Below, in pieces: positions 32,283 through 60,820 of a DNA stretch of 64,000 nucleotides (position 1 is its first letter; every line of letters begins with the position of its first letter). A program made the position numbers and the translations under genes. A model generated the notes under the pieces. The model saw only the letters and a list, made by a program, of their open reading frames with translations. It was not told where the DNA came from and did not search any database. The stretch is taken from contig JACQPN010000002.1 in NCBI GenBank assembly GCA_016207515.1, positions 76,350-140,349 of the forward strand, written 5' to 3'. This DNA comes from Euryarchaeota archaeon. GTDB taxonomy: Archaea; Thermoplasmatota; SW-10-69-26; JACQPN01.

Positions 32283-34127
32283 ATGCTTCTCGGGGGCCTG
32301 TCACCGTTGATCGTCGACTCGTCGCAGGCGCATGGCGCCGAACTCGTCGCCGTTCTCCCTTACGAGGCGCTCGGGACGTCGGCCGTGATGGCGGGAAGCG
32401 ACGTGTTCGTGTTCGGAGGGTTCGACAACGACGCCTCCTATTTCGACTCGATAGTCCGGTTCAACACGACCACCAAGGTCGTGACCACGATGGCCGCGAC
32501 GCTTCCCGGTCCGCGGGCGTGGACGAGCGCCGTCTGGGACGGTGAAGCGGCCTACGTCTTCGGCGGTTACGGAGCGACCTGCCCCGGGTGCTCCAAAGCG
32601 CCGCTGCGGGACATCATCAAGTACGACCCCTCGACCGATACGGCCGTGGAACTCACGGCGGAGTTTCCCACGGGCCGACGCGGGACGAGCGCCGTGTGGA
32701 ACGGTTCGAAGGCGTTCATCTTCGCAGGGGAGACGCCCGGCGGACTCTCGTCGAGTGTGTCGACCTTCGATCCGGTGACCGGCGTGGTCGCGAGCGCTAG
32801 CGGCGCCTTCTCGAGTGGACGGACGGAGACGAGCGCGATCTGGGACGGGCGAAACGCCTACGTCTTCGGCGGCCGCGGGTGCGCCACCTCTTCCGGGTAC
32901 TGCTCGCAGATCACGAGGTACAACACGACGACGGGCACAACGACCGTGATGGGCGCGACGCCACCGGAGGAACTCGCCTCCACGAGTGCTGCGTGGGACG
33001 GTTACGCCGCGCACGTGTTCGGCGGAAGGCGCTGCGACGGTCAATGTTACTATGAGTGGAAGGTCTTCCGGTACGACACGACGACCGGAAGCCTCACGAC
33101 GGCGCCGGCCGGAAGCATCTACCCACGCTACGGCATCGGAGCGGCCACCGATGGCAACGGCATCTACCTCTTCGGAGGCGGCGTGGAGCAAGATCATTTC
33201 CCCGACCCCGTCGGTTACGCGTACTCCACGATCTTCAACTATACCCTCACACCGGCCGGCACGGGAAGTGTCCTGGCCATCGCGGGGCCGGGTCGCGGCG
33301 AGACACGGGTCACATGGGGTCCACCCGCCTCTAACACGACGCTCGGCCCCATCACGGGCTACGCGCTCTACCGGCAACCGCCCATCGGGATCTTCTCGCA
33401 GATCGCGTCGCTCCCATCGACGGCCAGGTCGTACAACGACACCGGCCTCGGCGACAACGAGACGTGGGAATACTACGTGACGGCCTTCAACTACGCCGGG
33501 GAGGGCGAGGATAGCAACCTGGCGTCCGTGACTACCTACGGACTCCCATCGGCGCCTCGAAACCTCGCGGCGGTCGCAGGGCCTGGCCGACTCCAGGTGA
33601 GCCTCACGTGGTCGGGGCCTGCGAGTTCGGGCGGCGCGGGGGTCGCCGGTTACACCGTGTACCGGGGCCCCGTGGGCGGACCTCTTTCGAGCGTCGCGCT
33701 GGTCCCCTCCAACACTTTCACCGATTCCGGCCTCACGGACGGCGCCTCCTACGAATACCGGGTGTCCGCGAGAAACCTCGTCGGGGAGGGACCGTTGAGT
33801 GCGGCGGTTGTGGCGACGGCGTACAACGCCACCGCGCCATCGGCGCCTACCGACCTCGTCGCGATCCCGTCCGGTATCGGCACGGTCCGCCTCACTTGGG
33901 AAGCTGCGGCGGACGGAGGTCGCCCGATAACGGGCCACGTCGTTTACCGCGGCCATTTCGTCCCCGCGTGTGCCTGCTTCCTATACGGGCCTCTTGACGC
34001 GGGACCGGGGACGCAGTTCACGGACACGAACGTGCCCACGGGCATCTATCAATACAAGGTGGCGGCGCGTAACGTCGTCGGCCTAGGCCCGCAATCGGCC
34101 GGCGCCCACACGGTGGCGGCGCGTTGA
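32283..34127 (+). CDS. Kelch-repeat / fibronectin-III-like surface protein (first copy)
   Basis: A 614-residue exported protein. Residues about 25-325 hold six kelch repeats with the pattern TSAVWDG..AYVFGGYG and F(D/N)..T..V, a predicted beta-propeller. Then come three fibronectin-III-like modules (APRNLAAVAGPGRLQVSLTW, APTDLVAIPSGIGTVRLTWE and one before). Signal-like residues FAVLGAVVMLLGGLSPLIV partly precede the ATG at 32283, which sits inside the hydrophobic stretch; no usable codon exists upstream in frame. An ATG at 32186 in another frame gives a basic lead-in, so a one-base indel near the CCCC at 32255 is likely. It has no C-terminal anchor. A paralogue lies at 58532-60820. Confidence 0.8.
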   Translation: MLLGGLSPLIVDSSQAHGAELVAVLPYEALGTSAVMAGSDVFVFGGFDNDASYFDSIVRFNTTTKVVTTMAATLPGPRAWTSAVWDGEAAYVFGGYGATCPGCSKAPLRDIIKYDPSTDTAVELTAEFPTGRRGTSAVWNGSKAFIFAGETPGGLSSSVSTFDPVTGVVASASGAFSSGRTETSAIWDGRNAYVFGGRGCATSSGYCSQITRYNTTTGTTTVMGATPPEELASTSAAWDGYAAHVFGGRRCDGQCYYEWKVFRYDTTTGSLTTAPAGSIYPRYGIGAATDGNGIYLFGGGVEQDHFPDPVGYAYSTIFNYTLTPAGTGSVLAIAGPGRGETRVTWGPPASNTTLGPITGYALYRQPPIGIFSQIASLPSTARSYNDTGLGDNETWEYYVTAFNYAGEGEDSNLASVTTYGLPSAPRNLAAVAGPGRLQVSLTWSGPASSGGAGVAGYTVYRGPVGGPLSSVALVPSNTFTDSGLTDGASYEYRVSARNLVGEGPLSAAVVATAYNATAPSAPTDLVAIPSGIGTVRLTWEAAADGGRPITGHVVYRGHFVPACACFLYGPLDAGPGTQFTDTNVPTGIYQYKVAARNVVGLGPQSAGAHTVAAR

Positions 34128-44293: not shown

Positions 44294-45634
44294 ATGCTCG
44301 ACATCAGGCTCATCCGAGAAAAGCCCGGCGAACTCCGGGCGAACCTTGCCCGTCGAAATCACGCCCCATGGCTCGAACTCTTCGACAAGGTCGTCGAGGA
44401 GGACAAGGAGTGGCGGCTCGCCCAGAAGAAGGTCGACGACCTTCGTGCGGCGAAGAACAAGACCGCCTCGCGTATCGGGGAACTTATGCGCGAGAAGAAG
44501 AAAGAAGAGGCCGACGCGGCCCGACGCGAAGCCGCCAAACTCGGCGCCGAACTCGAGTTGGAGGAAGCGGGCCTTCAAGACTGGCTCGCCGAACTCAACA
44601 AGAAACTGATGCGCCTTCCGAACATCCTCCACGAATCGGTGCCCGTCGGGAAAGACGACGCCGAGAACAAGGTGGAAAAGACGTGGGGCGATGCCAAGAA
44701 GCCGGCCTTTGACCTGCGGGCCCATGGGGAGTTGATGGAGGCCGCGGGGCTCGCCGACTTCAACCGCGCGGCAAAGACAAGCGGGGCGGGCTTCGTTTTC
44801 CTCAAAGGCGAACTGGCACAACTTGACTTCGCATTGCAGCTATACGCGCTCGATTTCCTTCGCAAGAAAGGCTGGACGATAATCGAGGTCCCGGTGATGA
44901 TCCGCCGCGCCGTCTACGAGGGCGTCACCGATCTATCCGACTTCGAGTCCGTCATGTACAAGATCGAGAACCGGGACGCAGGCGTCGAACCCGGCGACGA
45001 GATGTACCTCATAGCGACGAGCGAGCACGCGATAGGCGCGATGCACCACGACGAGATACTCGAAGAGGCCGCGATGCCGCTCAAGTACGCCGGGATATCG
45101 CCCTGCTTCAGGCGAGAGATAGGAGCGCGCGGTGTGGACACGCGCGGCCTGTTTCGCATGCACCAGTTCAACAAGATAGAACAGTTCATCTACTGCAAGC
45201 CAGAGGATTCGTGGGCGTTCCACGAGGAACTGCTCGCCAATTCGGAGGCGCTCTTCCAGGGACTCGGCATCCCGTACCGCGTCGTCAACGTCTGCACGGG
45301 AGACATCGGCACCGTGGCGGCCAAGAAATACGACATAGAAGCATGGAGCCCGAGGCAGGGAAAATACGTCGAGGTCGTGTCGTGCTCCAACTGCACGGAC
45401 TATCAAGCACGGCGACTCAAGTTGAGGATAGGCCGCGTGGGAACCGAGAAGCGCACGCCGCACACGTTGAATAGCACGGCCATAGCCACAAGCAGGGCGA
45501 TGGTCGTCATATTGGAGAATTACCAGAATGCGGATGGGACGGTGACGGTGCCCGAGGCGCTACGGCAGTACATGGGCGGGGCCGATCGTCTGGGCGCCAG
45601 TGCCTCGGCCTCTGGTCCTACGGCGAACCGTTAG
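44294..45634 (+). CDS. serS: Seryl-tRNA synthetase
   Basis: 446-residue class II enzyme of the common (non-methanogen) type. N-terminal coiled-coil tRNA-binding arm (about residues 28-108; EDKEWRLAQKKVDDLRAAKN), motif 1 region (KGWTIIEVPVMIRRA), TSEHAIGAMHHDEIL, motif 2 FRREIGARG, the serine site, and motif 3 with [19 protein letters not shown]. The ending beyond residue 430 (ASASASGPTANR) is low complexity. A second, diverged copy of codons from NSTAIATSR to the end lies 2.19 kb downstream. The gene overlaps the 3' end of the pseudogene on the other strand by 4 bases. Confidence 0.96.
   Translation: MLDIRLIREKPGELRANLARRNHAPWLELFDKVVEEDKEWRLAQKKVDDLRAAKNKTASRIGELMREKKKEEADAARREAAKLGAELELEEAGLQDWLAELNKKLMRLPNILHESVPVGKDDAENKVEKTWGDAKKPAFDLRAHGELMEAAGLADFNRAAKTSGAGFVFLKGELAQLDFALQLYALDFLRKKGWTIIEVPVMIRRAVYEGVTDLSDFESVMYKIENRDAGVEPGDEMYLIATSEHAIGAMHHDEILEEAAMPLKYAGISPCFRREIGARGVDTRGLFRMHQFNKIEQFIYCKPEDSWAFHEELLANSEALFQGLGIPYRVVNVCTGDIGTVAAKKYDIEAWSPRQGKYVEVVSCSNCTDYQARRLKLRIGRVGTEKRTPHTLNSTAIATSRAMVVILENYQNADGTVTVPEALRQYMGGADRLGASASASGPTANR
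45465..45595 (+). repeat. serS 3'-end repeat, proximal copy (within serS)
   Basis: These 131 bases in the serS coding region match 47651-47781 in direct orientation. I count about 17 differences. Most are at third codon positions and 38 of 42 encoded residues agree. Confidence 0.85.
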
Positions 45635-47544: not shown

Positions 47545-47790
<246 letters not shown>

Positions 47791-47832: not shown

Positions 47833-49080
47833 TCAAGCGCCTTCCGGGCGTGCCTCGGAGTGCGTGTCGCGCTCAAGGGCCTTCGTGGTCGCATCGTCAA
47901 GCCCCAACGACGCCGCGAGCCGTTCTAGCATCTCGCGCTCCTCGCGGCTGAGGTTTCCGTCCGCCCAGGCGCCGGCCACGGCCTCGCGATAGACACGAGC
48001 GCGCTCTTCCGACGACATCTCGCCGACGCTTTTGACCCCGGGCATGGCCGCGCTCGCCACCTTCTCGGCCGCTCGCTGGAGGGGCGCGATTGCGAATACC
48101 AACAGGCCGGCAGCGGCGATACCTATGTAGGTCCCGAGGCTTTCGGCGAAGACCACCTGTGCGGTTTCGCTCACCACGAAAAAGACGCCGATGAAGGCGG
48201 CGGCGATCGTCGACTGCTTGATCGTCCACTTGACCTTCAGGTCGAGGCCGAGCAGTTGGTGGCGAAGGATTGCGTACGCGGCGACCGCGGCGCCAAGGAT
48301 CCTGGCGACGCCGTTGAACCCGTCGTCGAGCACCGAACCAGGAGGACTCGACGCCGTCACCAGCATGCCCGCAAGGGGCAGGGCGAATGCGAAGAGACTG
48401 ACATTTCTGGCCAGCCTCGCCGCGGGTCGTGGAGCGTTTCGGGTTGCCGACAGCCAAGCGGATCCGACTATGAGGCTCATCGCCAGCATGGGCGGCCAGG
48501 GGGTAAGGTTGCCCGCATCGACCGCCACGTTCCCCGTGACCAGGCCGGGGAATATGAGGAGGGCCACAGACAGCATGGCGGCCTGACTCCAGGCCGAGTC
48601 ATCCCCGCGAGCGACGGCGGTGGAATAACGGCCGGCGAGGATGAGAATCGCGCACCAGAGAAGGCCGTAGAAAACGGCGAGCCCCACTTGCGAAAATTGG
48701 TCGGCCGGTCTTGCAAGGCGCGGCCATACGATGACCAGGTAGGCTCCAACGAACGCCACACTAAGTAGCGCGGGCCGAATCAGCTTACGATGGTCTTGCT
48801 GGGCCATGCGCTTTGGAAACGTGACCACGAGAGCTATGAGCATGCACCCCGCGATGAGCAGGATCGCGCGCGCTGCGACAAGGAGAACCTCGTCAAGGGA
48901 ATCATCGTCGGAAGTCAGGTTCCGAAGGAAGAACGATACTCCGAACAACGTCGCGTAGCTCCCGAAGAACAAGGATGATGGGCGACCCCGACCGAGGACG
49001 AGCGCCATGACGCCTAGAGCGAGGAGGACGATGCCGCTGCCCGCGTTGATCCAGGCCGAGGCCGTTGGCAAGAAACTCAT
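47833..49080 (-). CDS. Multi-spanning membrane protein with TerB-like tail, paralogue 1 of the array
   Basis: 415 residues. About eight membrane helices cover residues 5-270. Then comes the juxtamembrane linker RHQLLGLDLKVKWTIKQST, two more helices (IAAAFIGVFFVVSETAQ; GIAAAGLLVFAIAPLQRAAE) and a soluble acidic tail (YREAVAGAWADGNLSREERE) that resembles TerB-like helical domains. This is the most diverged full-length member; the linker has GLDLK where others have FDIDVK. The ATG at 49080 overlaps the stop of the 60-residue ORF (ATGA). It is the last gene of the array, 40 bases from the serS remnant on the other strand. Confidence 0.7.
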   Translation of the reverse strand: MSFLPTASAWINAGSGIVLLALGVMALVLGRGRPSSLFFGSYATLFGVSFFLRNLTSDDDSLDEVLLVAARAILLIAGCMLIALVVTFPKRMAQQDHRKLIRPALLSVAFVGAYLVIVWPRLARPADQFSQVGLAVFYGLLWCAILILAGRYSTAVARGDDSAWSQAAMLSVALLIFPGLVTGNVAVDAGNLTPWPPMLAMSLIVGSAWLSATRNAPRPAARLARNVSLFAFALPLAGMLVTASSPPGSVLDDGFNGVARILGAAVAAYAILRHQLLGLDLKVKWTIKQSTIAAAFIGVFFVVSETAQVVFAESLGTYIGIAAAGLLVFAIAPLQRAAEKVASAAMPGVKSVGEMSSEERARVYREAVAGAWADGNLSREEREMLERLAASLGLDDATTKALERDTHSEARPEGA

Positions 49081-49259
49081 CGATTCACCCCGCGTGCGGC
49101 CTCCGTCTCAAGCTGCAGCGCACGCTCGGCCCCGAGGCCGAACAATCCGAAACAAAGCGTCCCAGCGTTTCGCGGACGTAAGCAAAGCATCCATACTCCC
49201 AATGTGGCCTCAAGGAGACCCGAGAAGCCGTTCAGAAGCACGAGTGTCGTGAAGGCCAT
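49077..49259 (-). CDS. 60-residue shortened paralogue in the array
   Basis: The ATG at 49259 overlaps the TGA of the previous gene (TGATG) and its own TGA overlaps the ATG of the next (ATGA). Residues 1-42 form one membrane helix and the following LRPRNAGTLCFGLFGLGA, like the N-terminus of the 381-residue paralogue (LRPDRTRNRFPALFFFCLGL). The last residues ERALQLETEAARGVNR resemble that protein's C-terminus (NEAIKLEAEVLEGG). It looks like a paralogue that lost its middle in frame while keeping both translational couplings. It could be a remnant or a regulatory single-helix partner. Confidence 0.6.
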   Translation of the reverse strand: MAFTTLVLLNGFSGLLEATLGVWMLCLRPRNAGTLCFGLFGLGAERALQLETEAARGVNR

Positions 49260-50404
49260 CAGACTGCCTCCGTCCGGCCGGTCCCGCCCTCCAGGACCTC
49301 CGCCTCAAGCTTAATCGCCTCGTTCCCATCGAGACCGAGATTGTTTGCCAACCGGACGAGGACGAGCCGCTCCTTGGCGGTTAGGCTCCCGTCCATCATG
49401 CTGTCGGACACGGCTGCTCGGAATATCTCGTTCTTACGCGACTCCACGTAGGCGTCGGTGTCCTTCACTCCGGGCATGGCCTTTTCCGCGAGCCGGTCGG
49501 CCGCCCGTTCGAGGGGCCTCAGGGCCAAGAGAAGGACACCTGCGCCTACCGCGCCGCCGAGTGTGCCGAGGCTCGCGCTCGCCGCGTTCTGGACCAGTTG
49601 CTCGATGACGATGAAGACGAAGAGGAACGCGCCAACGATGGCCCCCCGGCGGATCCCGACCTTGATCTTGAGGTCGATGTCGAAGAGTTGCGTGTGCAGG
49701 ATCCCGTACGAAAGCCACGCGACGAGCCATAGCGTGGCCAAGAGGACGCCCCAGATGAACCACGAGCCGAAGCGCGAGGGGCCCCCGAGCTGGACGGGAA
49801 GGAGGCTGTATGCCAGGAGCGCGACGAGCGTGACATGGTAGACGCCGAACCCGGTGGCGTAGCACCGCATCTGCCGGCGCACGACCGGCGTTCGCGCGTG
49901 CCTGTAGGACGAGAACGCCACGCCAACGGCGAAGAGCAGCATCAGCAACGACGCGATGTTGAACGGCGACCGGGCGGGCCCGAGCAAAACCGACCACGGT
50001 GTCTCCGTGCCCCGCGTCACGCCGAGCTGCCACCACGAGGGCGCGAGCACCACCGTCAAGGACAATGTGCCGACGAGGCCCAGCACCGTGACGCGACCAA
50101 CGTGGGTGCCGAGCCACCCGACGACTGGCGTGGGGAGGGTCCCCAGAAAGCCGAGGTACGCGCCGTGAAACCATAGGACGGGCAGCGTCAGGGCGAGGCC
50201 CAGTGCCCACCCGTCCTGCGGGCTCGTCGTGGAGAAAAGCAAACCGGTGGTGCCCGCGTAGAGCCCGAGGCAGAAGAAGAACAGCGCCGGAAACCGGTTC
50301 CGGGTGCGGTCGGGGCGCAGCAGCAACACCACGGCCGCCATCAAGATCTCGAGGCAGGAAAGCGCGAGGCTGGCCAGCGGCGCGGCGTTGAGCTCGAAGG
50401 CCAC
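49259..50404 (-). CDS. Multi-spanning membrane protein with TerB-like tail, paralogue 2
   Basis: 381 residues with the family plan: about seven or eight helices (starting with LASLALSCLEILMAAVVLLL), the linker LHTQLFDIDLKIKVGIRRGA, two helices ending ALRPLERAADRLAEKAMPG, and an acidic tail (FRAAVSDSMMDGSLTAKERL). The arginine-rich loop between helices is kept (YRHARTPVVRRQMRCYATG). It starts 23 bases after the stop of paralogue 3 and overlaps the 60-residue ORF. No catalytic residue pattern is visible. Confidence 0.7.
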   Translation of the reverse strand: MAFELNAAPLASLALSCLEILMAAVVLLLRPDRTRNRFPALFFFCLGLYAGTTGLLFSTTSPQDGWALGLALTLPVLWFHGAYLGFLGTLPTPVVGWLGTHVGRVTVLGLVGTLSLTVVLAPSWWQLGVTRGTETPWSVLLGPARSPFNIASLLMLLFAVGVAFSSYRHARTPVVRRQMRCYATGFGVYHVTLVALLAYSLLPVQLGGPSRFGSWFIWGVLLATLWLVAWLSYGILHTQLFDIDLKIKVGIRRGAIVGAFLFVFIVIEQLVQNAASASLGTLGGAVGAGVLLLALRPLERAADRLAEKAMPGVKDTDAYVESRKNEIFRAAVSDSMMDGSLTAKERLVLVRLANNLGLDGNEAIKLEAEVLEGGTGRTEAV

Positions 50405-50427
50405 CTACGCCTCCCTCCACGCGACCG

Positions 50428-51756
50428 TCACGATCCTCCAGTGGCGGTGGGCCTCGTTCTCAAGGCGGCCGATTCGGCCTCCACCGCTTCCCTCAACTCA
50501 TACGCCTCCTCCGGCGTCAACTGACAAACACTCGCAAGCCTCGCGAGGGCCCTCTCCTCCTGCTTCGTGACGACTCCGTCCGCGAGCGCCATCCGCACGG
50601 CGTCCTTGTATGCCTCCATCTGTTTTGCGCGGTCGCCTTGTTTGATCTCGGTCGCCTCGTGGACGTTCGGCATCGCCGCGTTCGCGATGCGGTCTGCGGC
50701 GCGCTGTAGTGGTGCGATTGCGAATAGGAGCAGTCCGGCTGCGAGGCCGCCGAAGGCCCAATCATATTGGGTTTGGAGATACTGCTCCGCGACTTGCGTC
50801 ACGATGAAGAACACGGCGAGGAAGATCGCCGCAAGTGTCCCGCGCTTGATGCCCCACTTGATCTTCACGTCGACATCGAAGAGTTGGTGTTTGAGGAGCG
50901 CATAGGTCGTGAGGATCGAGAGAGGGAGGCGCCAGATGCCTGAAAACGCAGAATCGAGTGCGGTGCGGGTGGGCCCGGGCGCCATGGTCGCAACGACTAT
51001 CCCGGTGACCAGGGGGAGCCCCGCCAGCAGGAGGTATTTCCTGGAAGCCGAGGCGAGTATCGGGTCATCTGCACTCGCTCCGCGTCGCCACATGACGTAG
51101 AAGGTGTATGCGACAAGCGCTAAGATGATGGGGCGCGAGAGCGCTGCCAGAAAGGTCCAGCCCCCCGCCCCAAAGGGCTCGGCCCCCATCCTAACGAGGG
51201 TGGTGGCCAGATTCGCGAGCACGACCATCGCGAACGCAAGACTCACAAGCAGCATGGATTGGCGTCGGGACCCACTGTTTTCTGCGAATGCGTCCCGCGC
51301 CAAGAGTGCAGCGATGAGCATGAAGAGGACGGTGAAGGACCCGTAGTTTCCGCCGCCGCCAAAGAATTGGTTAAGCGCCCCCTCGCCCGAGTCGATCGAG
51401 TGGTCGAGCATATACCACGCGTCGAGCGCGACCAAGGCCGCGAGAAGTAGGCCCGCGATCAGGGGGCGGGGCGGCCAGCGCCGGTCTACCGGGTAGATAG
51501 AAATGAAGGAGAGGAGTGCCGCAAAAATGGGGGGGCCGAGGTAGCCCCCTAGGGCGTTCGCGAAGGCATTGAGGCGCAAATCGTCCGTCGTGTTGATGCC
51601 GCCGAGGAGATGCGCCATCCCCCGAAAGACCAGGACCAGGGCGAACGCGCGGTTCAACCTATTGTTGAATCCAAGGTAAAGAAGGACGCCGGCGAGCAGG
51701 ATGTTGAGCGTCCCCGCGGCGATGATCGGGTATTCGTCAAGGGGAATGACGGCCAC
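50428..51756 (-). CDS. Multi-spanning membrane protein with TerB-like tail, paralogue 3
   Basis: 442 residues, close to paralogue 4. Helices from EYPIIAAGTLNILLAGVLLYLG onward, conserved DH pair after a helix (YMLDHSIDS), the linker LKHQLFDVDVKIKWGIKRGT, two helices, then APLQRAADRIANAAMPNVHE, nearly identical in paralogue 4. The tail MALADGVVTKQEERALARLA resembles TerB/DUF533-like domains. The GTG at 51756 shares one base with the stop of paralogue 4 (TAGTG), so translation is coupled. Confidence 0.72.
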   Translation of the reverse strand: MAVIPLDEYPIIAAGTLNILLAGVLLYLGFNNRLNRAFALVLVFRGMAHLLGGINTTDDLRLNAFANALGGYLGPPIFAALLSFISIYPVDRRWPPRPLIAGLLLAALVALDAWYMLDHSIDSGEGALNQFFGGGGNYGSFTVLFMLIAALLARDAFAENSGSRRQSMLLVSLAFAMVVLANLATTLVRMGAEPFGAGGWTFLAALSRPIILALVAYTFYVMWRRGASADDPILASASRKYLLLAGLPLVTGIVVATMAPGPTRTALDSAFSGIWRLPLSILTTYALLKHQLFDVDVKIKWGIKRGTLAAIFLAVFFIVTQVAEQYLQTQYDWAFGGLAAGLLLFAIAPLQRAADRIANAAMPNVHEATEIKQGDRAKQMEAYKDAVRMALADGVVTKQEERALARLASVCQLTPEEAYELREAVEAESAALRTRPTATGGS

Positions 51757-53102
51757 TAGGCGCCCACTCCCGTCACCGTGATCTCCATCGCCTTCTCGAC
51801 CTCTTCGCGCACGGTGAGCGTCTCAAGGGGACTAAGCCCCAGCTCGTGCGCCACCGTTGCGAGCGAACGCTCCTCCGCCCGCGTGATGACGCCGTCGGCG
51901 AGCGCCATCTCGACGGCGGCGCGGTAGGCTTTGAGTTGGCTTGTTTTGTCGCCGGCGCGGAACTCTTGGGCCTCATGGACGTTCGGCATGGCGGCGTTGG
52001 CGATCCGGTCTGCCGCGCGCTGCAGCGGCGCGATGGCGAAGAGGAGGAGGCCGGCCGCCACGCCCCCGAACACCCACTCGTAGTTGGTCTGGAAGTATTG
52101 CTGGGCGAGCTGTGTTACCACGAGAAAGGTGAGAAGGAAGACCGACGCGATCGTCCCGCGTTTGATGCCCCACTTGACCTTCACGTCGATGTCGAATAGT
52201 TGGTATCGAAGAAGGCCATAAACGACGAAGAGCGGCAACGCGACGCGCCAGAAGAGGAAACTTTCTGCGAAGATGCGGCCGTCGGCGGGCAGGAATACGC
52301 CAACGAAGACGCCCGACATGACCGCGGCGGCCGCGAGCAACAAGTAGGCGCGCGCGGTCCCGCCGATTTCCTTGTCGGGCTTTCGCGACAGGTCGAAAAG
52401 CTTCGCGACCACGACTCCGAGTACGAGGAGGGCCGCACCCTGTTGCAGGGCTGCGTAGAACGGCGGATAACCGAGCGTCCGCAGGGGCGCCGGGAAGAGC
52501 TGTCCCGCAAAGGTGGAGGCGGCGAAGTCGAACAACAGGAAGAGGACGAAGCCGAGGCTCACGAGGACCACGGATTGGCGTGCGGAGCCTGCGGGCATGC
52601 GGGCGAAATCCATGAGAAAAACGAGGGCAAGCAGCGCCCCCACGACGGAGAAAAGGTCACCTATCATCGCCAGGGGGCCGAGGGGGTACGCCGAATAGGG
52701 ATCGGTCAGGAGCGCGGGAGCTGAGAGGTCTTGGAACAGCCGATGATCCATCGCGTACAATAGTTGGACGACGATGGCCATGCCCCAGAAGAGATACGGC
52801 CCCGCAGGGAACCTTGTGATGATTCTGCGCCTCGTCGGATACACGAGGCCGAACCAAACCATGGCGAATGCCAAGAGCAGGAAGAAGTAGGGCTGCACGG
52901 AGGCCCAGAGGAAATCCTCCACTACGCCCTCGCCCGTGAAGCCGAACACCACAGCGGTCCAATTCCCTCCCCTGGCGATCAAGAAGAGTGCGAAGGCCTG
53001 GTTCGCGGCACTATTGAAGCGGAGGTAGAGGAGCCCGCCCGCCAGTGCGAAGTTGACTGCGGCGAGGGCAAGCGTGGTGTACTCGCTCGGCTCGATGGCC
53101 AC
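51756..53102 (-). CDS. Multi-spanning membrane protein with TerB-like tail, paralogue 4 (first gene of the array)
   Basis: 448 residues from the GTG at 53102 (MAIEPSEYTTLALAAVNFAL), which aligns with the start of paralogue 3 (MAVIPLDEYPII...). The longer GTG at 53117 is rejected because a TATA at 53123-53133 is 26 bases from 53102. Plan: 7-8 helices, a DH pair (YAMDHRLFQD), linker LRYQLFDIDVKVKWGIKRGT, two helices, APLQRAADRIANAAMPNVHE and an acidic tail (VEMALADGVITRAEERSLAT). The linker and following helices resemble the membrane part of bacterial 7TM sensor kinases (Y.LRHRLFDID..I), but no kinase domain follows. Hence a receptor-like protein with a small cytoplasmic module. Confidence 0.74.
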   Translation of the reverse strand: MAIEPSEYTTLALAAVNFALAGGLLYLRFNSAANQAFALFLIARGGNWTAVVFGFTGEGVVEDFLWASVQPYFFLLLAFAMVWFGLVYPTRRRIITRFPAGPYLFWGMAIVVQLLYAMDHRLFQDLSAPALLTDPYSAYPLGPLAMIGDLFSVVGALLALVFLMDFARMPAGSARQSVVLVSLGFVLFLLFDFAASTFAGQLFPAPLRTLGYPPFYAALQQGAALLVLGVVVAKLFDLSRKPDKEIGGTARAYLLLAAAAVMSGVFVGVFLPADGRIFAESFLFWRVALPLFVVYGLLRYQLFDIDVKVKWGIKRGTIASVFLLTFLVVTQLAQQYFQTNYEWVFGGVAAGLLLFAIAPLQRAADRIANAAMPNVHEAQEFRAGDKTSQLKAYRAAVEMALADGVITRAEERSLATVAHELGLSPLETLTVREEVEKAMEITVTGVGA

Positions 53103-53122
53103 AGGAGGCCAAGACACCTTTC

Positions 53123-53133
53123 GGTTATAAAGC
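53123..53133 (-). promoter_or_regulatory. TATA box of the paralogue array, overlapping the dus stop codon
   Basis: GCTTTATAACC on the minus strand includes the TAA that ends dus. Its centre is 26 bases from the GTG at 53102, so the array has its own leaderless promoter although dus runs straight into it. Confidence 0.6.
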
Positions 53134-58531: not shown

Positions 58532-60820
58532 ATGAACCCCCTCTATTCTTGCAAAGGTTCTGGAAGAGAACGACGCAAGACAGCGTCTTTCCTGCCAACG
58601 CTCATAGTCGCACTGCTGACTCTCCAAGTCGTCCTTCCGACGTTCTCGGAGACCGCGCTCGCCGACAGCGGCAGCGTCATGGCGGAGTCGGCCGACCTGC
58701 CTTCTAAACGATGGGGAACGAGCGCCGTCTTCACGGGGACGCACGCTTTCCTTTTCGGCGGCAGTAACGGCGGCCCGGCTTTCTACGACGACATCCAACG
58801 CTTCGATCCCGAGGGCGCGACGTGGGCCACGATGGGGGCGAGGCTCCCGTCCGGTCGCGCCGACACTAGTGCGGTCTGGACCGGGTCGAAGGTCTACATC
58901 TTCGGAGGACGCGACCGCAACGGCACCGACCTCGACGACATCCTCGAATACGACCCGGCCCTCGACGTCCTGACGGTCGCGCCGGCGAAGCTCCCGCAAC
59001 CGATGACGCGGACAAGCGCCATCTGGGCCGAGCCGGACGCCTACGTGTTCGGTGGGTTCAACGCCGTTTCCCGATCCTACTCCACGAAGATCTTCCGTTA
59101 CTCGCCCGCCACCGGGTCCGTCACCGTCATACCGGCAGCCCTTCCCTCGCCACGATGCTGTACGAGTGCGATCTACGATGGGTCGAAGGGTCACATATTC
59201 GGCGGTTACGACGGGGGGAACCGGTCCGACCAGATACTCCGTTTCGACCCAGTGGTGGGCGCGCTCACGGTCTCGGCGGCAAGACTCCCGACGCCACGCG
59301 CGTACACAAGCGCCGTCTGGAACGGGGAGCACGCGTACGTCTTGGGCGGCACCGAGTGCCTGGAGAATTGCCACGACGTCGACGAGGTGGTCCGCTATGA
59401 GACCACCGCCGGGGGCGTCGTCAAGATGAGCGCGACGATGTGGCCACCTGTCACCTACGCGAGCGCCGTCTGGATGGGGGACGAGGCCTACGTCTTCGGC
59501 GGATTGTGGCGGCAGTCGGTGCGCGACGAGGTGTGGTCCTACAACATAGCGCCCGGAGCGCCGCGCTACGCGTACGCCACGACCAAGAACGCCCATGGTA
59601 GCCTCGAGGTCCTCTGGCTTCCCCCCTTCACGAACTCCTATTCGAGTCCGCTCCATGGTTACCGCCTCTACCGTGGGACGGCGCCGGACGCTTTGGCGGA
59701 GCTCGCGACGATGGGGAACCGCACGACCTACACCGACCAACCCCTCCCCGACAACACCACGTTCTACTATCAGTTGGCCGCGTTCAATTCACGGGGCGAC
59801 GGCGCCAAGAGCGCGATAATCTCGGCTAGGACCCTCGCCCGCTCGGTGCCCACTGTCCCGCTCGCCCTGACCGTCCTTCCTGGCCCTTCGCCCGGCAAGA
59901 TCACGGTGTCGTGGAACCCACCCGCGAAAGACTCCGGCGCGCCCATCCTCGCCTACCGCGTATATCGCGGCGAAACGAACACGACGCATCCTTTCCTCAC
60001 GGAAATCGGCAACGTCACGAGTTTCGTCGACCAGGGCCTCGGGCACGGCGCGAAACGGTTCTACAGGGTGAGCGCGGTGAACGGGCCGGGCGAAGGCCCG
60101 CTCGCTAGCGCCCAGGGCGGAACGACGTTCAACGTCTCCTCGAAACCCCTTTCGTTCCAGGCCCTTCCGGGCCCCGCGATGGGGCAGGTAAAACTCTCCT
60201 GGAAAGCGCCCGCGGACGACGGTCGTAGAGAGATAACGGGCTACAACATCTACCGCGGCACATCGCCGGGGGCGTTGGGCCTTGTCGGGACGCTATCGCC
60301 GAAGATGCTTCTACTCGACGAGAAGGGGCTTCCCGACGCGACGATTCACTACTACGAGGTGGTCGCCGTGAACGCGATGGGCGAGGGCGAGGCCGCAACG
60401 GCGGCAGCGAGCACGTACGTGGACACGGTGCCGGAGATGCCGAGGGAACTCACGGCGTCTCGTGGCAACAACACGGCCGCGTTCAACACGGTGAACCTCG
60501 CGTGGAAGTCCCCGATCGACAATGGGGGACCACCGACGATCGGCTACTACATCTACCGGTCCGACGACTCGGGGGCGCCGGGAAAACTCATCGAGGTGGG
60601 TGCCACAGGCGTCTACGTGGACACGGAGGTGGAGCCGCTCACGAAGTACTACTACCGCATCGGCGCGAAGAACATACTCGGAGCGGGCATCTTCACGGAC
60701 AGGGTGGGTGTGGTGACCGGCTACAACCCCAAGGTCTGCAGCTGCTCGCCCGGCGCCGGGGCGTACGATGACCGCGACGCCGACGGACAGAAAGACAACG
60801 GCGAGGACCTGAGACCCTGA
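58532..60820 (+). CDS. Kelch-repeat / fibronectin-III-like surface protein (second copy)
   Basis: 762 residues. Signal segment LPTLIVALLTLQVVLPTFS; six kelch repeats (about 50-345; RWGTSAVFTGTHAFLFGGSN, ADTSAVWTGSKVYIFGGRDR, RTSAIWAEPDAYVFGGF); then four FN3-like modules with the ITGYNIYRGT or LHGYRLYRGT pattern. The end, DDRDADGQKDNGEDLRP, has the spacing of a calcium-binding dockerin or thrombospondin-3 type loop. It is a paralogue of the 32283 protein with one more FN3 unit. Beta-propeller plus FN3 suggests binding to glycans or other cells; the ligand is unknown. Confidence 0.84.
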   Translation: MNPLYSCKGSGRERRKTASFLPTLIVALLTLQVVLPTFSETALADSGSVMAESADLPSKRWGTSAVFTGTHAFLFGGSNGGPAFYDDIQRFDPEGATWATMGARLPSGRADTSAVWTGSKVYIFGGRDRNGTDLDDILEYDPALDVLTVAPAKLPQPMTRTSAIWAEPDAYVFGGFNAVSRSYSTKIFRYSPATGSVTVIPAALPSPRCCTSAIYDGSKGHIFGGYDGGNRSDQILRFDPVVGALTVSAARLPTPRAYTSAVWNGEHAYVLGGTECLENCHDVDEVVRYETTAGGVVKMSATMWPPVTYASAVWMGDEAYVFGGLWRQSVRDEVWSYNIAPGAPRYAYATTKNAHGSLEVLWLPPFTNSYSSPLHGYRLYRGTAPDALAELATMGNRTTYTDQPLPDNTTFYYQLAAFNSRGDGAKSAIISARTLARSVPTVPLALTVLPGPSPGKITVSWNPPAKDSGAPILAYRVYRGETNTTHPFLTEIGNVTSFVDQGLGHGAKRFYRVSAVNGPGEGPLASAQGGTTFNVSSKPLSFQALPGPAMGQVKLSWKAPADDGRREITGYNIYRGTSPGALGLVGTLSPKMLLLDEKGLPDATIHYYEVVAVNAMGEGEAATAAASTYVDTVPEMPRELTASRGNNTAAFNTVNLAWKSPIDNGGPPTIGYYIYRSDDSGAPGKLIEVGATGVYVDTEVEPLTKYYYRIGAKNILGAGIFTDRVGVVTGYNPKVCSCSPGAGAYDDRDADGQKDNGEDLRP

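Follow-up and report, generated by a model that had tools for sequence, protein, structure and literature searches.

The minus strand of the 64,000-nucleotide stretch of archaeal DNA analysed here (the window) carries a tandem array of four full-length membrane paralogues of 448, 442, 381, and 415 aa, accompanied by a 60-aa stub. We consider it fairly probable that they belong to a diversified set of kinase-less sensory receptors signalling by docking of their tails. The array members look like sensors that have lost the kinase usually attached to them and bear a small helical signalling tail instead. Such a receptor set would account for the variable input and the conserved output of the family, for the kinase fusions in its sister proteins, and for the altered surface of the fused tails.

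Paralogues A (51756..53102, 448 aa, GTG start) and B (50428..51756, 442 aa) are of the A type and are sisters in the tree (support 100/96), paralogue C (49259..50404, 381 aa) is of the C type (clade support 100/99), and paralogue D (47833..49080, 415 aa) of the D type. The stub (49077..49259) is N-terminal, comprising the first TM segment only; it matches the N-terminal profile (E 1.9e-6) and is probably a degraded copy. Comparable N-terminal stubs are found in further arrays (L098, L067, L073, and L027). A and B overlap by 1 nt, as do C and the stub, the stub and D share a 4-nt ATGA, and B is separated from C by a 23-nt gap. A is 41% identical to B (E 1.4e-80) and matches C and D with E 7e-28 and 3e-28, respectively, so the homology of the four proteins is far beyond chance. 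Both the coordinates and the pairwise E-values agree with the original prediction of four full-length paralogues and a short copy, overlapping or nearly touching. A TATA-box-like TTTATAA (53125..53131, minus strand), read directly, lies ca. 26 nt upstream of the GTG of A and, as predicted, overlaps the stop codon of dus, the upstream housekeeping neighbour; judging by its position, it is likely to be the promoter of the array, with a leaderless start. An alternative start of the A ORF, at 53117, is just ca. 8 nt from this box. The different receptor subfamilies of the array are probably co-transcribed.

Just before the array, a 139-nt stretch from the 3′ end of serS occurs twice (45456–45594 and 47642–47780 of the window, 86%), once on either side of some 2 kb of DNA containing a BNR-repeat gene; the arrangement looks like the scar of an old insertion or duplication. 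Two Kelch/fn3 surface-type proteins are encoded elsewhere in the window (32283–34127 and 58532–60820), both relatives of the Kelch/fn3 protein encoded ahead of the receptor–Usp pair of locus L029, described below.

The genome to which the window belongs (G000, 2.67 Mb) comprises about two dozen family members, as found by a profile search. Its chaperonin, Dus, and archaeal S15 genes are in keeping with an archaeal host. Those that are apparently intact and kinase-less by the family profile number 21: seven form an array on contig C22, six another on contig C2 (49–58 kb), four that of the window, and four are single. The C22 array contains in addition two damaged copies, one frameshifted and one internally deleted. 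Multi-copy arrays, whose recurrence among homologues the original prediction had put forward for checking, are thus found repeatedly in the same genome, and also in its relatives G001, G002, G006, and G076; the family is not a well-known single-copy protein. The named family matches are MAGs, one labelled as a Thermoplasmata archaeon and several apparently mislabelled, while a scan of genome contigs with a single protein retrieved no relative. Alignment A1 was too divergent for pattern building, which succeeded with a narrower alignment.

In the tree, different genera have the A-, C-, D-, and E-type clades in common, which marks the array members as paralogues of old standing and not as products of recent copying; the predicted non-identical paralogues are thus old ones lying in one array. 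The window order A, A, C, stub, D comprises the same kinds as the L098 array of G076 (A-like, C, D, stub, D), and D, C, and A types are present, in a different order, in the L026 array. Two family members of G001 (L068:1211–3917) lie near the housekeeping genes iPGM and serS, as do those of the window, and this common context suggests that the position of the array is old. In two genomes (L026:2270–2671 and L085:5457–5792) an internal deletion has left small in-frame proteins in which TM helix 1 runs into the tail. One paralogue (L030) has an N-terminal ectodomain-like extension.

The models of A and C consist of a 7TM-type part, a linker, two further TM helices, and a tail. C is modelled as 7 TM + 2 TM with a three-helix tail (pLDDT 76.8) and A as 9 + 2 TM (pLDDT 71.7); the helix number therefore varies, and the predicted seven to eight helices do not hold for all full-length members. 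The loop charges of A alternate in a positive-inside pattern fitting an N-out, tail-in topology, from which we infer this orientation. In A, the transmission segment, composed of the linker QLFDIDVKVK and the last two TM helices, is encoded at 51987..52220 and the TerB-like tail (ALADGVITRAEER) at 51795..51992 (profile match E 2.3e-20); the tails of B (50479..50676), C (49295..49480), and D (47863..48048) match the tail profile as well. The motifs predicted to be shared by all members hold as a consensus but are not invariant, D having QLLGLDLKVK and C having LRPLERAADR and MMDGSLTAKERL. For the 20 G000 sequences of alignment A1, pairwise identity averages 19% over the 7TM part, compared with 49% over the linker plus the final helix pair and 34% over the tail. 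By this measure the family appears to combine a variable input with a conserved output.

HisKA_7TM (PF16927, Pfam gathering score 28.6 bits) is matched by 5 of 40 members (best 9.9e-10). Its matches in G000 occur only within the receptor family, and two paralogues exceed the cut-off (37.7 and 32.3 bits), which bears out the predicted kinship of the membrane half with 7TM sensor kinases. Within the window array, B (24.2 bits) and A (18.3–20 bits) remain under the cut-off, and C and D give no match. None of the 13 HATPase_c loci of G000 coincides with a HisKA_7TM match. In A–D, a domain search found neither a HisKA/HATPase core following the membrane part nor PF00069, so the array members carry no kinase, as had been foreseen. 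In another lineage, HisKA_7TM is fused to a DUF835 region (L120:89–2236, G029).

In a Foldseek search with the C model, the top 50 PDB matches were all GPCRs, most of them with a probability of 1.00; the target-normalised TM-score reached 0.59 and the best E just 0.011, for a model based on a 16-row alignment and with no control model. The A model gave weak PDB matches, none of them significant. We treat the GPCR likeness of the C-type model as a lead and not as an established finding. Among the weak PDB sequence matches a rhodopsin ranked first (E 0.0016); a microbial rhodopsin was rejected, there being no Lys within TM7 of C (residues 209–240). As the proteins have multiple TM helices and neither the A nor the C model has a PDB fold match at E ≤ 0.001, they might be transporter or membrane-enzyme paralogues merely resembling receptors; we regard this as very improbable in view of the HisKA_7TM homology, the kinase fusions described below, and the result of the domain search, which found no transporter family match for the array members.

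In hhalign, the tail matches the C-terminal half of an archaeal stand-alone TerB, including the ADG...E motif, with 96.0% and E 4.2e-9, and Pfam TerB (PF05099) is matched by 8 of 40 members (best 3.6e-5). The predicted TerB likeness is therefore upheld, and by these profile comparisons the tail corresponds to the C-terminal half of TerB. The window proteins A, B, and D score 19.7–22.9 bits, with A at 21, all below the TerB cut-off of 24.4 bits, and C gives no match; a related protein, L123, is well over it (47.9 bits). Elsewhere in the phylum the same tail is found on HTH regulators (L123 and L124) and on membrane proteins of the fn3 and PKD kinds (L122 and L121, the latter adding a kinase), and in marine-type 7TM relatives an EF-hand pair is situated between two tails. 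A genome-wide tail profile showed the TerB-like tail of G000 to be confined to the receptor family, bar one marginal match. Wiring via other TerB-tailed proteins within G000 was rejected, none having been found. Since this genome has no other TerB-tailed protein, simple tail–tail docking would leave L125, a kinase-bearing family member, as the only clear candidate partner. Ter proteins are absent from among the neighbours of the window array and the scanned neighbours of other arrays.

Most genes neighbouring the arrays are not signalling genes, and conserved-neighbour clustering revealed no universal partner, just Usp with Kelch/fn3 in two genera and a common Hsp20/thermosome region. In G000 (L029) and G001 (L069), a C-type receptor gene following one for a Kelch/fn3 protein shares 4 nt with a Usp gene, so that Usp is co-operonic with the receptor. 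A stand-alone receiver gene lies 60 nt downstream of the L031 receptor. One array adjoins Hsp20 and, by sequence, thermosome genes, and a member from G002 lies in the same gene group. These stress-related neighbours, together with the TerB homology and the EF-hand pair of the marine-type relatives, could speak for a Ter-type role in membrane stress or envelope maintenance, in which the TerB half would bind metal or Ca2+ and report membrane damage with no ligand sensing. We find this unlikely: the number and divergence of the sensor halves suit many inputs better than one, the kinase and receiver links indicate signalling, and metal binding by a half-domain is putative.

The original prediction allowed for a sensory or a defence membrane complex. 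The receptor-like character stands, but the defence role was rejected as unsupported. In PADLOC there was no full-length component match, and the partial matches to PDC-S48 (E 1.6e-6 to 0.009) are weak and span only the TerB segment of the tail. These, and a SoFic-like Fic gene upstream of one array, are what an anti-phage or anti-element complex would have in its favour; we hold it to be highly improbable, as the window array has no effector in or beside it, the neighbouring genes are of housekeeping, stress, or signalling kinds, and conservation among them is limited to Usp and chaperones. The Fic gene (L026:1239–2270) lies directly upstream of the largest array, with a 1-nt overlap.

Sister proteins carry Hanks Ser/Thr kinases, so the likely output differs from that envisaged originally, and the earlier reading as a whole is partly supported. 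In a single chain, the receptor and tail are followed by a Hanks kinase in G003 (L063–L065), G005 (L105–L107), G006 (L113), and G001 (L139 and L151). G000 itself has two such kinase-bearing genes, L125, with a PF00069 domain (E 4.3e-49), and L130, whose receptor is divergent and which has no scored tail. Pfam confirms the kinase fusions both in G000 and in its relatives. G076 contains a match to the C-terminal part of L125, from the linker to the kinase (47% identity over 412 residues), which hints at additional receptor kinases. Another receptor-kinase design is seen at L129:1432–3738 (G000), where Kelch repeats and a Hanks kinase are combined in one protein.

The tails of the two forms differ in their acidic pair. 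The D is kept in 64 of 74 kinase-less tails vs. 1 of 13 kinase-bearing ones, and the E in 69 of 74 vs. 4 of 15, whereas core residues are kept in both (Y in 68 of 74 kinase-less and 14 of 15 kinase-bearing tails, L in 71 of 74 and 14 of 16). The D/E contrast is strong but does not amount to statistical proof, the number of independent fusions being uncertain. A 43-row tree scatters the kinase-bearing members over three positions, and 0% of its bootstraps unite them in a single clade; such a clade is nevertheless not rejected by the AU test (p 0.12), and in an earlier quick tree the one-clade arrangement scored better. We therefore allow for one to three kinase fusions.

The kinase-less members might be regulatory subunits joining the few kinase-bearing paralogues (L125 and L130), by analogy with chemoreceptors feeding CheA. 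G000 has both kinds, the fused and unfused proteins have the receptor, linker, and tail in common, and the acidic pair differs between them as it might in complementary partners. We nevertheless judge this arrangement rather unlikely. The 97% complete G002 has 18 family matches and no kinase-bearing one, its sole Hanks kinase found being a receiver–Ser/Thr-kinase fusion (L161:4090–5439), which excludes a kinase-bearing paralogue as the general partner; conversely, G005 has about four kinase-bearing members and no kinase-less one. The counts of the two forms in seven genomes tend to be opposite (rank correlation ca. -0.64 by hand count, not significant at n = 7). The impression is of alternatives more than of partners that depend on each other.

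In the favoured reading, that of kinase-less receptors with a docking tail, the variable HisKA_7TM-type domain, with two extra helices in the A type, would face the outside and the membrane and act as the sensor, and the conserved cytosolic linker with the two-helix hairpin would relay the signal to the cytosolic TerB-half tail. In the kinase-bearing sisters the tail runs straight into the Hanks Ser/Thr kinase. The array members carry no enzyme, and hence their tail would have to dock, by way of its acidic D-G...E surface, onto a partner in trans, for which a Ser/Thr kinase, a receiver, and a Usp protein are candidates. Different receptor subfamilies may form mixed oligomers. A bolder version, which seems to us possible but doubtful, is that of a lineage-own receptor repertoire of GPCR-like fold, kept in tandem birth-and-death arrays, detached from histidine kinases, and wired by the TerB half as an adaptor into a eukaryote-type Ser/Thr kinase network.

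Sensing in archaea has been described mostly via two-component systems and chemoreceptors, and no description of a 7TM–TerB family was found in the open-access literature. If the favoured reading is true, the family is an undescribed receptor class with kinase-less and Ser/Thr-kinase forms built on the same tail and about two dozen members in one genome; it would allow tests of how membrane receptors switch archaeal Ser/Thr kinases, and of a common fold for the HisKA_7TM domain and GPCRs. The comparison with eukaryotic GPCR repertoires is one of form only, both comprising many divergent 7TM receptors, tandem arrays, and damaged copies; unlike GPCRs, the C- and A-type proteins have two or four extra helices, respectively, the Foldseek E-value is at best that given above, and coupling to a heterotrimeric G protein or arrestin is not to be expected in an archaeon. 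With TerB (PF05099) the family has the C-terminal half in common, including ADG...E, but it has only this half-domain, always C-terminal to membrane helices, and the array contains no further Ter protein. The sisters L125, L063–L065, L105–L107, and L113 resemble the membrane Hanks-type Ser/Thr kinases of prokaryotes, whereas the array members are without the kinase. HisKA_7TM is listed among the sensor domains of archaeal histidine kinases (PMC6944256), and Thermoplasmata are poor in these enzymes, with 3 in 11 genomes in a census (PMC5847659). HisKA_7TM sensor histidine kinases, archaeal and bacterial, resemble the family in the N-terminal 7TM sensor, for which two G000 paralogues exceed the Pfam cut-off; the receptor family differs from them in having no HisKA/HATPase, in the added two-helix hairpin and TerB-half tail, in the extra helices of the A type, and in its large kinase-less arrays.
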